Shown in pieces: positions 2,959 to 41,003 of a stretch of 52,523 nucleotides of DNA; within the stretch, counting starts at the first letter, position 1; every line of letters begins with the position of its first letter. Under the pieces are notes generated by a model. That model was not told the origin of the DNA and searched no databases. It worked only from the letters and a program-made list of their open reading frames with translations. A program made the translations under genes and the position numbers. Location: IMG/VR virus record IMGVR_UViG_3300030117_002380, positions 3,069 to 55,591 of that record, one strand, 5' to 3'. Source of the stretch: a virus.

Positions 2959-3168
2959 ATGTCTTATTATAAACGTGCAAATCGGTTAGCAAGTCAGGGA
3001 TGGAGAGATAAAAATCTTGAGTCTAAAGGAGTAAAAATAACCATACCCAAAGCACCTTGGGACAAGGAGAACAACAATAGAGATGTGGCAACTAATAATG
3101 TTGTTGGGCGCGGTAAGTTTAAACACACTCGTCAACACTTGACGACTTTACTTGGAGATGAAATGTGA
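2959..3168 (+). CDS. hypothetical protein, 69 aa
   Basis: Starts directly after the preceding stop and overlaps the amidase start by 4 bases. Basic N-terminal half, soluble, with no recognised domain. Its place between the exported protein and the amidase suggests a lysis-module function, but nothing in the sequence proves this. Confidence 0.55.
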   Translation: MSYYKRANRLASQGWRDKNLESKGVKITIPKAPWDKENNNRDVATNNVVGRGKFKHTRQHLTTLLGDEM

Positions 3169-35771: not shown

Positions 35772-37236
35772 CTTCACTGAATATTTAACGGATGAAGAGT
35801 TAGCTAAAGTTGCTCCTATGCTGGAGCGTTTGAAGACGCTTGATGACCGCACAGAAAAGCATGATAATTTTATGAGTTTTGTAAAGCATGTGTGGCCTCA
35901 ATTTATAGAGGGTGGTCATCACAGGATTTACGCTGATAAGTTGCAGGCTGTTGCGGACGGTAAGTTAAAGCGTTTAATTATTAACATGCCGCCTCGACAT
36001 ACGAAGTCTGAGTTTGCGAGTTATTTATTTCCAACGTGGTTGATGGGGAGAGATCCAACCAAGAAGATTATTCAGGCGACACACACGGCTGAGTTAGCGG
36101 TTGGATTTGGTAGGAAGGTCAAGAATCTTATAGATAGCGAGGATTTTCGAGATGTTTTCCCAGATGTTAAATTGGCTACGGACGCTAAAGCAGCGGGTCG
36201 TTGGAGCACTAACAAAGGTGGCGAGTATTATGCTGTCGGTGTTGGCGGTGCCTTGGCGGGTCGCGGTGCGGATTTGGCAATCATTGATGACCCGGTTTCG
36301 GAACAAGACGCGCTGAGTGCGAGTGCATTAGATAACATTTATGAGTGGTACACTTCTGGTCCGAGGCAGCGTTTACAGCCCGGTGGTTCGATTATTATCG
36401 TTATGACGCGGTGGAGTATTCGTGATTTAACTGCGAAGGTTTTAGCGAAGCAAAGTGAGGTTGGCGCTGATAAGTGGGAGGTTGTTGAGTTTCCTGCGAT
36501 TATGCCGAGCGGTAATTCTTTATGGCCTGAGTTCTGGAAGTTGGAGGAGTTGGAGGGCGTTAAGGCTTCTATTCCTGTAGCCAAATGGAACGCTCAGTAT
36601 ATGCAAAACCCTACGGCTGAAGAGGGTGCTATTATCAAGCGTGAGTGGTGGAATATCTGGGAGAAGGAAGATCCGCCTGATTGCGCTTATGTGATACAAA
36701 GTTATGATACTGCGTTTAGTAAATCTGACCGTGCAGACTTTAGTGCTGTAACGACTTGGGGTATTTTTACGGAGCCTGAATCAAATGAGGATCATATTAT
36801 ATTGCTTGATGCTATTAGGGGGCGTTGGGATTTTCCTGAGCTAAAGGAGCAGGCAAAGGAGATATATGATATTTATGAACCTGACATGGTTTTGATTGAG
36901 CAGAAAGCTAGTGGTATGCCGTTGACGCAAGAGTTTCGGCGCATGGGTATTCCTGTTACGCCGTTTACTCCAAGCCGTGGTGCTGATAAGTTTACACGTA
37001 TGCACTCATGTGCGCCTGTATTTGAAAGCGGTATGGTATGGTGTCCTGATAATAATTTCGCTGATGAAGTTATGGAGGAATGTGCTTCATTTCCTAATGG
37101 TGAATATGATGACTTGGCGGATTCGATGACACAGGCTATACTGCGTTTTAGGCAGGGTGGTTTTATTATCACTCCGAGTGATTATGATGACGAAGATTTT
37201 ATGCAATATACTCATAGGAAAAGGGAGTATTACTAA
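35752..37236 (+). CDS. terL: terminase large subunit
   Basis: 494 aa. Walker A-like P-P-R-H-T-K-S-E (80-87), Walker B L-A-I-I-D-D (175-180), motif III-like V-M-T-R-W, and a C-terminal RNase H-like nuclease with Y-D-T-A-F-S-K-S-D (first Asp), L-I-E-Q-K-A-S-G and D-D-L-A-D-S (last Asp). It translocates and cuts DNA into the prohead. TTG at 35752 has GGAG 8 bases upstream; the TTG at 35746 is too close to it. Confidence 0.93.
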   Translation: MNDLTSNFTEYLTDEELAKVAPMLERLKTLDDRTEKHDNFMSFVKHVWPQFIEGGHHRIYADKLQAVADGKLKRLIINMPPRHTKSEFASYLFPTWLMGRDPTKKIIQATHTAELAVGFGRKVKNLIDSEDFRDVFPDVKLATDAKAAGRWSTNKGGEYYAVGVGGALAGRGADLAIIDDPVSEQDALSASALDNIYEWYTSGPRQRLQPGGSIIIVMTRWSIRDLTAKVLAKQSEVGADKWEVVEFPAIMPSGNSLWPEFWKLEELEGVKASIPVAKWNAQYMQNPTAEEGAIIKREWWNIWEKEDPPDCAYVIQSYDTAFSKSDRADFSAVTTWGIFTEPESNEDHIILLDAIRGRWDFPELKEQAKEIYDIYEPDMVLIEQKASGMPLTQEFRRMGIPVTPFTPSRGADKFTRMHSCAPVFESGMVWCPDNNFADEVMEECASFPNGEYDDLADSMTQAILRFRQGGFIITPSDYDDEDFMQYTHRKREYY

Positions 37237-37511
37237 TGGCTGCGAAACCTGACTTTTTGGATTTAGACGGTGATGGCGATAAGTCTGAGCCTATGAAAAC
37301 TGCTGCAAAGCAAAAGAAGGCTGCTAAAATGAAAAAGGGCGGCAGAGTTAAAAAAATGAAAGGTGGTGGCGCTGTATCTACCGAAAGAAACGGTGTGTTG
37401 CAGGAACACTACAAACAACCACAACCATGTCCTATGGAGCTTGAGAACAGTGGTTTTTCGCGCGGTGCTGGCGCTGCTATTTCAGGGACGAAGTTTGTAG
37501 GGGTTAGATAA
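37236..37511 (+). CDS. small basic protein with acidic DxDGD start
   Basis: 91 aa. F-L-D-L-D-G-D-G-D-K-S-E-P-M-K near the N-terminus followed by a lysine-rich zone (K-K-A-A-K-M-K-K-G-G-R-V-K-K) recurs beside portal genes in many marine phages. The function is unknown; the Asp-rich loop could bind calcium. Coupled by one base at both ends. Confidence 0.6.
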   Translation: MAAKPDFLDLDGDGDKSEPMKTAAKQKKAAKMKKGGRVKKMKGGGAVSTERNGVLQEHYKQPQPCPMELENSGFSRGAGAAISGTKFVGVR

Positions 37512-40000
37512 TGGCTATAGAGCGTGGCCTTGGCGCTGGGGGCATTCCAGATGAAGTACCTTTGAATGAGGGGCTTCTTCAAAACATTATTGAGCTTCCT
37601 CAACAGCCTAGTGTTACGGAGTTCACAGATGGCAGCGCAATTGTTGGTGAGTTTCAGGATGAACAGCCGCCTGCTATGACTGTGCCATTTGATGGTAATC
37701 TTGCAGATGTTATTGATGAAGCAGAGTTAAACAGAATTAGCTCTGACTTAGTTGGTTCAATTGAGGATGATTTGTCTTCCAGAGAAGATTGGGAGGATAC
37801 ATACAAAACTGGTCTTGAGTTTTTGGGCATGAAAACTGAGGAACGGACAGAGCCTTTTGAGGGTTCTTCTGGCGTTATTCATCCTTTGCTTGCTGAAAGT
37901 GTTACGCAGTTTCAAGCACAGGCATATCGTGAGTTGTTGCCTGCAACTGGGCCTGTAAGAACACAGGTTGTTGGCGCACAGAATGAAATGCTTGTTAAGC
38001 AGGCAGAGCGTGTTAAAGACTACATGAACTATATGATTACTTATGAGATGGAAGAGTATGATCCTGAGTTGGATCAGATGCTGTTTTATCTTCCTGTTAC
38101 TGGTTCTACATTTAAAAAGGTTTACTTTGATCCGCTCAAGGGCAGAGCGGTTAGTAAATTTTTACATGCTGAAGATATTATTGTGCCTTATGGCGCGACT
38201 GATTTGTTGTCTTCGCCACGTATTACGCATCGACTTACGATGGATTCCAATGAGATTAAAAAGCTACAGCTTAATGGCTTTTATCGTGATGTTGAGATTC
38301 CAGAGAGTCAATATGGTGGGGAGTATGGCGGTAGTCAGATAGAAGAGTCGATTGATGATGTGCAGGGTGTGCATCCATCTGGACCTTCTGAGGATATAAC
38401 TTTGTATGAGGTACATGCCTCTTTGGATATTGAAGGCTTTGAAGACATGGGGCCTGACGGTATGCCCAGTGGTTTAAAATTGCCTTATATCATAACTATA
38501 ATTGAAAGCTCTGGAGAGGTTTTATCAGTCCGTAGGAATTACGTTGAAGTAGATCCTATGAAACGTGCGAAACAATATTTTGTGCATTATAAGTTTCTTC
38601 CCGGTCTTGGCTTTTATGGCCTTGGTTTGACGCACATGATTGGTGGTTTGGCTCAAGCTTCTACTTCTATTCTGCGTCAACTAATTGATGCGGGTACGCT
38701 CTCCAACCTACCTGCGGGTTTCAAGTCTCGTGGTGCTCGTATTCGTGATGAGGATTCCCCACTTCAGCCCGGAGAGTTCAGGGACATTGATGTGGTTGGA
38801 GGCACCCTGCAAGGCTCTTTGATGCCCCTTCCCTTTAAGGAGCCTTCAGGGACGCTCTATAATCTTATGGGTACGCTTGTGGATGCTGGGCGTAGGTTTG
38901 CGTCTATGGCTGACATGAAGATTGGTGAGATGAGCGGCGAAACGCCTGTTGGTACGACTATGGCGATTATGGAGCGTGGGACAAAGGTTATGTCTGCAAT
39001 TCATAAACGTATGCACTATTCTCAAAAGGTAGAGTTTAAACTTCTTAGCAATATCTTTGCTGAGACAGTGCAGGCATATCCATACGCTGCTGATATGCAA
39101 ATGGGTCCAGAAATATTTGCACAAGACTTTGATGCTAGAGTAGATGTTTTACCTGTATCTGATCCCAATATTTTTTCTATGTCACAGCGCATTGCATTGG
39201 CTCAGACAGAATTGCAATTGGTGCAATCAAACCCACAAATTCATGGTGGTCCACAAGGATTGTATCAAGCGTACCGTAAGATGTACGAAGCATTAGGGGT
39301 TAATAACATTGACGCTATTTTACCCCCGCCTCCACAGCCTATGCCTATGAACCCTGCTAAGGAAAATCAGAATGCGTTGATGGGTGCGCCGTTACAGGCT
39401 TTTCCAGATCAGGATCACGAGTCACATATAGAAACTCACATGGCTGTTATGTCTACGCCTGCTATGGAGCTAAATCCACAGTCTATTGTGGCCTTGCAGG
39501 GACATATACAAGAGCACATTGGTTTGTTAGCCGAAGGACAAGCGCAACAAGAAATTATGTCTCAAATACCACCAGAGCAAATGCAAATGATGCAGCAACA
39601 AGCTCAGATGATGCCACCACAACAAGGACCGCAGGGACCTATGCCGCCTGATCCCATGATGCAGTTTAAGCCTCAAATTGATGCTCGTGCAGCAGAAATC
39701 ATTGCAGAAATGACTGAACAGTTGGCACAAGCTGTAGCTCCACCACCACAGTCTGATCCTTTGGTAGACATACGCAATCAGGAATTGCAACTGAAGGCTG
39801 CTGATTTACAGCGCAAGCAGGAAGAGTTTGACTCTAAGCAGGATCTTAACCGTGAGAAAGAACGTAATGACGTTTTAATCGCACAACAAAGAATTGATGC
39901 TCAGGAAAAGGCAATAGATGAGAGAGCGCGTGTTGCTGAAGAGCGTATTAAAACGCAGCGAGATATAGCTGCGATAAACTCTATAGATAAGCGGAGGTAA
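37511..40000 (+). CDS. portal protein, P22-like
   Basis: 829 aa. The N-terminal half (W-E-D-T-Y-K-T-G, P-F-E-G-S-S-G-V-I-H-P-L-L-A-E-S, L-P-A-T-G-P-V-R-T) and the helical L-G-F-Y-G-L-G-L-T-H-M-I-G segment are typical of P22-like portals (PF16510 type). The C-terminal ~220 residues are Gln/Met/Pro-rich and then a long coiled coil (from ~760), as in the barrel of P22 gp1. Twelve copies would form the DNA channel at one capsid vertex. Confidence 0.88.
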   Translation: MAIERGLGAGGIPDEVPLNEGLLQNIIELPQQPSVTEFTDGSAIVGEFQDEQPPAMTVPFDGNLADVIDEAELNRISSDLVGSIEDDLSSREDWEDTYKTGLEFLGMKTEERTEPFEGSSGVIHPLLAESVTQFQAQAYRELLPATGPVRTQVVGAQNEMLVKQAERVKDYMNYMITYEMEEYDPELDQMLFYLPVTGSTFKKVYFDPLKGRAVSKFLHAEDIIVPYGATDLLSSPRITHRLTMDSNEIKKLQLNGFYRDVEIPESQYGGEYGGSQIEESIDDVQGVHPSGPSEDITLYEVHASLDIEGFEDMGPDGMPSGLKLPYIITIIESSGEVLSVRRNYVEVDPMKRAKQYFVHYKFLPGLGFYGLGLTHMIGGLAQASTSILRQLIDAGTLSNLPAGFKSRGARIRDEDSPLQPGEFRDIDVVGGTLQGSLMPLPFKEPSGTLYNLMGTLVDAGRRFASMADMKIGEMSGETPVGTTMAIMERGTKVMSAIHKRMHYSQKVEFKLLSNIFAETVQAYPYAADMQMGPEIFAQDFDARVDVLPVSDPNIFSMSQRIALAQTELQLVQSNPQIHGGPQGLYQAYRKMYEALGVNNIDAILPPPPQPMPMNPAKENQNALMGAPLQAFPDQDHESHIETHMAVMSTPAMELNPQSIVALQGHIQEHIGLLAEGQAQQEIMSQIPPEQMQMMQQQAQMMPPQQGPQGPMPPDPMMQFKPQIDARAAEIIAEMTEQLAQAVAPPPQSDPLVDIRNQELQLKAADLQRKQEEFDSKQDLNREKERNDVLIAQQRIDAQEKAIDERARVAEERIKTQRDIAAINSIDKRR

Positions 40001-40001
40001 C

Positions 40002-40259
40002 ATGTCTTCATCAGTAAGAGAAAAGATAATTGAACAAATTCGTGCAGCTAAACGTGTAGCAAGAGGTATTGGTAATGCCGTTGAAAAAGGGATCGAGTCA
40101 GCAAACGATAAGCTCGAACATATCGAAGCTAAGGTCGGAGGGGTATCCGCAAAAGCAAGCAGTAGCGATAGCCCTAAGCCAAGCAAAGAAAAAAAAGAAA
40201 CCATCAAAAAAGAAAAAGCCCCAGCGAAAAAACGCGGGAGGCCTCGTAAAAAAGTTTAG
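40002..40259 (+). CDS. lysine-rich protein with AT-hook tail
   Basis: 85 aa. GGAGG 5 bases upstream of ATG and two bases after the portal stop. A helical N-terminal half is followed by a Lys/Ser/Glu-rich linker and a terminal [10 protein letters not shown], an AT-hook-like DNA-binding motif. Its last 185 bases are also read in another frame by the next gene; both frames appear to encode plausible proteins. Confidence 0.55.
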
Positions 40260-40299
40260 CAAAATATCCAGACCCCAGAAATTCCAAGGTATTTTCTGA
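40075..40299 (+). CDS. small conserved phage protein (M-P-L-K-K-G family), overlapping frame
   Basis: 74 aa. AGAGGT 7 bases before ATG 40075. [24 protein letters not shown] and V-A-I-A-L-S-Q-A are the signature of a small protein widespread in phages, ending in a poly-lysine tail. It lies inside the previous gene in the +1 frame for 185 bases, so this stretch is dual-coding. Function unknown. Confidence 0.65.
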
Positions 40300-40351: not shown

Positions 40352-40549
40352 ATGGACGCACTACATCTTGCTGATTATCTTTTAAAGAACATACGAGAAC
40401 GTGATTCTAGGTTAAAAGATAAGCTTGCAGATGGTTCGATTACTTCTTGGGAGGAGTATCGGTATATTGTAGGAGAAATACGCGGGATGGCCTACACTGA
40501 GCAAGAAATTCAGACCGCGATGAAGGGTATAGAATACGGAGATGACTAA
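40352..40549 (+). CDS. small helical protein, 65 aa
   Basis: Helical, acidic, with W-E-E-Y-R-Y-I-V-G-E-I-R-G-M-A. This type of protein is commonly found near portal and co-chaperonin genes of marine phages. No Shine-Dalgarno is visible before the ATG. It overlaps the co-chaperonin gene by 8 bases. Function unknown. Confidence 0.6.
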   Translation: MDALHLADYLLKNIRERDSRLKDKLADGSITSWEEYRYIVGEIRGMAYTEQEIQTAMKGIEYGDD

Positions 40550-41003
40550 AAAGTTATTCGTTCCAGACAGATTAGCCACATCTGGTATGCCAAAGCCAAT
40601 TAAAAAAGCTTTTGCAGAGACAAACAAAGTAAAAAATGAAGAAGATCCATCTAAAATGGAGCTTTCTGCACTTGAAAGATTACCACAGCCTACTGGGTAT
40701 CGTATAAGTATTATTCCATATTACCCTAGCGCACAGACTAAAGGTGGTTTATATGTTCCTGATCAGGTACGTGAGCGCGAAGCCTTTGCAACAGTAGCCG
40801 CTTATGTAATTAAACTTGGTCCTGATGCGTATAATGACTCCCAAAAGTTCCCAAATGGTCCTTGGTGTAATGAAAAAGATTGGGTTCTTATAGGAAGATA
40901 TGCTGGAAATAGGTTTAAAGTGGAAAATCTTGAGGTTCGTATTATAAATGACGATAATATTATCGCTACAATCCTTGACCCTAAAGATATTTCGTATGTA
41001 TAA
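40542..41003 (+). CDS. GroES/gp31-like co-chaperonin
   Basis: 153 aa. From about residue 48: P-T-G-Y-R-I-S-I-I-P, G-G-L-Y-V-P-D (mobile-loop region), A-A-Y-V-I-K-L-G-P-D-A-Y, P-W-C-N-E-K-D-W-V and R-Y-A-G follow the Cpn10 pattern. It probably replaces host GroES on GroEL to fold the coat protein, as T4 gp31 does. Adjacent scaffold and coat genes support this. Confidence 0.78.
   Translation: MTKKLFVPDRLATSGMPKPIKKAFAETNKVKNEEDPSKMELSALERLPQPTGYRISIIPYYPSAQTKGGLYVPDQVREREAFATVAAYVIKLGPDAYNDSQKFPNGPWCNEKDWVLIGRYAGNRFKVENLEVRIINDDNIIATILDPKDISYV

Follow-up and report, generated by a model that had tools for sequence, protein, structure and literature searches.

Immediately 3' of the portal gene in a group of mostly uncultured tailed phages lie two small genes, here called A and B, that overlap out of frame. 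We analysed them in the IMG/VR virus record IMGVR_UViG_3300030117_002380 (55,591 bases), of which positions 3,069 to 55,591, a stretch of 52,523 nucleotides, form the window whose numbering is used throughout. Gene A starts one base past the portal stop codon. Gene B begins inside A, in its +1 frame, and the two share 185 bases up to the TAG stop of A, which sits in the F-S codons (TTTAGC) of the tail of B. We regard it as very likely that B is the older gene, that A was overprinted on it in the ancestor of one portal clade, that constraint has been divided between the two, and that pieces of the pair were later lost singly.

An earlier note on this DNA had described an out-of-frame overlap of this length with a good ribosome site for each gene, and both descriptions hold. 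The computed anti-Shine-Dalgarno pairing in the window is -10.1 kcal/mol at the start of A and -7.1 kcal/mol at that of B, against a background mean of -2.0 kcal/mol over 450 internal ATGs in the portal genes of seven contigs. Among relatives carrying both genes (A+B), Shine-Dalgarno (SD) pairing at the B start averages -9.0 kcal/mol over 37 distinct contexts, and pairing at the A start is -4 kcal/mol or stronger in 97% of 37 contexts. On these ribosome-site statistics, both A and B would be translated.

The two proteins

The B protein matches phrog_2423, a family of small phage proteins of unknown function (E 1.3e-17; residues 1-49 of 74 on profile positions 1-49 of 52), and so do 41 of 41 aligned B proteins of relatives. 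Many family members are about 50 amino acids long and stop after this domain, whereas B continues with a basic, Lys-rich linker, ends in the conserved peptide FSxIARPQRFxGIF, and is overlapped by A. In the AlphaFold2 (AF2) model of B (mean predicted local distance difference test score, pLDDT, 82.4), the domain consists of two helices (residues 9-21 and 26-38) and the linker is loose. The hairpin had zero matches in the PDB at E 0.001 or better, and its matches in a viral structure library were mostly unnamed or uncharacterised phage proteins. PDB sequence matches to B were artificial alpha-helical repeat proteins and were treated as chance. The small gene 5' of the portal (37236-37511) ends in GAGAAISGTKFVGVR, which resembles both the C-terminal peptide of B and the end of HTVC023P gp32, GVGAAIRGHKFIGVK; this is perhaps a shared docking peptide.

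For A, no convincing family match was found in the profile libraries searched. The AT-hook tail that the earlier note had assigned to it does not stand, as the Pfam AT_hook profile scores 13.8 bits, below the gathering cut-off of 17.4, and 13.4 bits in one relative. NCBIfam and Pfam scans of A and B returned nothing at cut-off, and no solved relative was found. The AF2 model of A (mean pLDDT 63.1) has an N-terminal helix of modest confidence and a low-confidence remainder. Some A proteins (at loci L010, L017, L044 and others) contain the segment VRARxxxGHFxxDDPSTPENEAW, which recurs in 15 records of proteins from phages of Roseobacter, Vibrio and Synechococcus; because it is common to A and to other phage proteins, the segment supports the A frame as coding. 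Judging by position and charge, A and B may both be small, basic proteins with an accessory role in the head or at the portal vertex.

Distribution and order of arrival

Scans of IMG/VR found 586 relatives of the portal (80 kept), 546 of B (80 kept) and 74 of A, with the same contigs partly repeated. Together with the window and named phage records they gave 238 loci, 219 of them with a portal match. A script sorted these 219 into A+B (105), A with only the linker and tail of B (A+tail, 46), B-only (43), A-only (9), tail-only (3), neither (4) and too short (9); L032 was classed as tail-only in the tree though A is present. Three pairs of loci (L175/L205, L172/L180 and L121/L135) have similar portals and far more diverged B blocks, which suggests recombination near the portal-B junction.

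Of 50,697 phage records, 124 have the B domain and none has A. In B-only loci, B stands directly after a homologous portal gene or past a gap, mostly of about 150-220 bases, and these portals are 45-54% identical to that of the window where more than 400 residues align; B is also present in phages without such a portal. In the portal tree, all A-bearing rows fall in one clade (54 of 90 rows, support 100) that contains zero B-only rows, and every B-bearing row of this clade keeps A open; the tree is rooted on three distant phages with long branches, which leaves its root less secure than the clade. Among 120 distinct B genes, the A frame is open for at least 100 bases in 63, of which 61 are A genes (the exceptions are phiCbK, L089, and L167), and in the remaining 57 it closes after 11-74 bases. 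The spread of the A frame is therefore a subclade of the range of B. Given that A is confined to one portal clade, that B stands alone outside it, and that A is kept in one lineage where B is gone, the birth by overprinting that the earlier note had thought plausible is borne out: A appears to be the newcomer, overprinted on an older B, probably once.

The openness of A exceeds what composition would provide. When the codons of an unchanged B protein are drawn anew from the portal usage of the same contig, the mean probability of an open A frame is 0.0027. In the real sequences the frame is open in all 52 distinct A+B members and in none of the 40 distinct B-only ones; these classes are defined by A openness yet coincide with portal clades. 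The distance from the A start to the B stop is 1 mod 3 at 16 of 16 lengths in A+B and at 14 of 14 in A+tail loci, and the A stop takes only four positions relative to the B stop (101 A+B loci).

Constraint along the overlap

Constraint was analysed in 101 of the 105 A+B loci and then in equal-length pairs only (22 A+B, 12 A+tail and 2 more); the two-frame counts drew on 60 distinct A+B, 35 A+tail and 4 A-only sequences. Omega, the ratio of observed to expected differences in independent pairs, is given for each frame (omega_A, omega_B). In A+B pairs (Table 1), the first 24 codons of A are constrained in the A frame, the first 35 codons of B are constrained in the B frame while A amino acids vary freely, the Lys-rich linker is weakly constrained in both, and the codons past the A stop are constrained in B. 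In A+tail lineages, omega is 0.36 where A is alone, 0.35 (A) and 0.88 (B) in the linker, and 0.14 (B) in the tail.

Table 1. Features of the portal-side locus in the window; omega values are from A+B pairs.
Feature	Coordinates	Strand	Details
Portal gene, upstream neighbour	37511..40000	+	Pfam SU10_portal 33 bits (cut-off 30); phrog_1216 E 5.1e-37
Gene A, probable overprinted newcomer	40002..40259	+	85 aa; N-terminal helix, free segment, Lys-rich tail
Part of A ahead of the B start	40002..40074	+	omega_A 0.25, omega_B 1.10
SD-like stretch for the B ATG, inside A	40059..40066	+	pairing -7.1 kcal/mol
Gene B, probable older gene	40075..40299	+	74 aa from ATG; phrog_2423 domain, basic linker, C-terminal peptide
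Overlap of A and B	40075..40259	+	185 bases
35-codon domain of B	40075..40179	+	omega_B 0.17; A only kept open; AF2 helices
Lys-rich stretch, both frames read	40180..40259	+	omega_A 0.42, omega_B 0.69
Last codons of B (C-terminal peptide), past the A stop	40260..40299	+	omega_B 0.26

Within the domain block, 33 differences change A only and 3 change B only. Changes that are silent in B and alter A occur at 2.83 times expectation in A+B loci, compared with 2.50 times in B-only controls. B-silent changes that make or remove an A stop number 0.5 against 3.6 expected in A+B loci and 20.5 against 8.0 in the controls, a result that leans on the match between class and clade, the A+B class being open by definition. 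Over the same block, the A frame read off B-only genes is on average 25% identical to the A of the window, compared with 55% within A+B. Much of the likeness of A there is thus imposed by B and by kinship, and what looks family-like in A within the overlap is for the most part a shadow cast by B.

The claim that the overlap codes in both frames, with family-like sequence in each, consequently survives in part. Both frames behave as genes and B has its family, but A is without one, and the 185 bases are, by these counts, not doubly constrained throughout, A being free over the B domain save for stops. The two-frame comparison of nonsynonymous and synonymous rates (dN/dS) across relatives that had been suggested finds A or B constrained by segment, but the linker weakly in both and the domain only in B. 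This is the pattern of a segregated (asymmetric) overlap, in which one product is constrained per segment, with the Lys-rich linker mixed.

Later losses, alternatives and known systems

A+tail contigs have no B domain, and their A lacks the matching segment, with 29-44 residues before VRAR compared with 56-63 in A+B. All 47 of the A+tail loci compared have the linker and tail of B in the A +1 frame (one of them, L214, was later recoded A+B). These contigs occupy five placements on the tree (L078/L069/L062; L021; L216; L016/L024; and a 14-row group), some of which may reflect recombination or unresolved forks. Relocation of the B domain was considered and rejected: five A+tail records (18-49 kb, completeness unknown), searched over their full length, matched only in linker and tail. 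At L222-L231 (9 loci, 4 distinct), A is kept, the B frame has 4-5 stops and no tail was found; an A-only record searched whole for B gave no match. Conversely, L066 and L067 keep the linker and tail of B with no recognisable A; at these two loci a TTG after an AG-rich stretch may act as start. Broken frames in relatives, which the earlier note would have held against double coding, are found only outside the A clade, in B-only loci that would predate the birth, and in lineages from which B or A has disappeared.

Where the B domain is gone, the linker and tail apparently start from an SD-served ATG inside A. The first in-frame ATG of A+tail loci has a mean SD pairing of -5.9 kcal/mol over 27 distinct contexts (background -2.0), with weak internal starts, at -3.0, in L016, L024 and L034. 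Just before this ATG, the first Arg of VRAR is encoded by AGA or AGG in 18 of 18 distinct A+tail contexts, compared with 1 of 6 in A+B and 0 of 2 in A-only (Fisher 1.2e-5, not corrected for kinship). Alternatively, ribosomes translating A might shift frame into the tail of B, so that in A+tail loci an extended A would finish with this tail. Wherever both are found (140 of 140 loci), the tail does occupy the +1 frame of A, and there are A-rich runs, but the ribosome site at the internal ATG, the skewed Arg codons and the retention of the tail without A in L066/L067 make frameshifting unlikely.

Several observations weigh against an older B overprinted by A. The synonymous rate of B over the overlap is not clearly below that of the portal (73.5 differences against 82.2 expected in 17 pairs, some apparently recombinant); the synonymous ratio is 0.88 in A+B and even lower, 0.54, in the B-only control, and this unreduced rate is evidence against strong dual coding. 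Codon usage correlates with that of the portal at r 0.105 for B and 0.297 for A, whereas the genealogy test expects the older frame to lie nearer to the genome; the comparison uses raw counts of some 35 codons that recur among kin, and we judged it uninformative. For the Lys-rich stretch, chance alone leaves the partner frame open in 0.56 and 0.55 of draws, so openness there says little. Recombination among these phages also blurs the tree.

The synonymous rate, together with the freedom of A over the B domain and its lack of a family, would suit a locus in which only B is a gene and A an open frame surviving by composition. We consider this improbable in view of the low chance of an open A frame, the constraint on A ahead of the B start, the ribosome sites at the A start and the persistence of A where B is gone. 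Amino-acid selection in both frames over all 185 bases, which the family-like look of both proteins across relatives would favour, is equally hard to sustain, as B-silent changes alter A much as they do in B-only controls and A+tail lineages have dropped the part of A that matches the domain. The reverse order, with B overprinted on an older A, is very unlikely: the slightly better codon correlation of A stands against the presence of the B domain, and absence of A, in the phage records, and against B alone beside homologous portals outside the A clade. Conservation of the tail as an RNA or DNA element, suggested by near-identity among close relatives, is just as improbable given its low omega_B in both A+B and A+tail pairs and the distant relatives that swap codons and keep the peptide.

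Overprinting of A on B would then have proceeded as follows. The older phage gene, B, would encode a small protein made up of a two-helix domain, a basic arm and the conserved C-terminal peptide. A would have arisen 5' of B in the common ancestor of a single portal clade, running from just past the portal stop through the 5' part of B in another frame on the same strand. Translation of A would follow directly on that of the portal, while B would be started at a separate ribosome site within A. The DNA would be divided, with the N-terminal helix and basic tail of A and the domain and C-terminal peptide of B each constrained in their own frame, and the partner frame mainly kept stop-free. Functionally, the A helix or the C-terminal peptide of B might dock while the Lys-rich arms lie on DNA. 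Such a division would permit later piecemeal loss of the B domain with the matching filler of A, of the whole of B, or of A. We lean towards a turnover series: B alone; A born; the B domain dismantled and its C-terminal peptide kept off-frame by a new SD-ATG inside A; and finally B lost with A surviving, or A lost. If this series is true, segregated constraint would be what permits stepwise replacement.

Overprinted births are usually inferred from two states, and their aftermath is seldom laid out. Here homologous phages show several states at one fixed portal-side site, so one can ask when a newcomer falls under selection, why a free segment is tolerated and how overlaps dissolve. The locus also carries a warning, as a second frame can look conserved through the shadow that the first casts on it, and gene callers that bar long overlaps could miss one gene of a genuine pair.

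Further 3' of B lie a gene for 65 amino acids with a weak phrog_32603 match (40352-40549) and a GroES-like co-chaperonin gene (40542-41003); several related phages likewise have GroES 3' of the portal. Pelagibacter phages HTVC023P and HTVC027P, phage 023Pt_psg01 and Roseobacter phage CRP-902 have a homologous portal (43-50% identity) but no A, and other small genes take the place of B; the first three have a GroES gene nearby, as in the window, and GroES is named in the HTVC023P-type core in part of PMC9599517. In the open-access literature on overprinting, overlap loss and this family we found nothing on the A/B pair. The portions of PMC8227390 that treat overprinting, with its ancestral and new frames, describe an asymmetric (segregated) model that resembles the present case, a narrow new frame lying on a wide older one with one product constrained at a time; the present site differs in that, among its relatives, either gene has also been lost there in part or entirely. 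The HIV-1 Rev/Env overlap, as set out in part of PMC9119678, similarly segregates functional residues between two frames, whereas here the B hairpin faces low-confidence filler in A.
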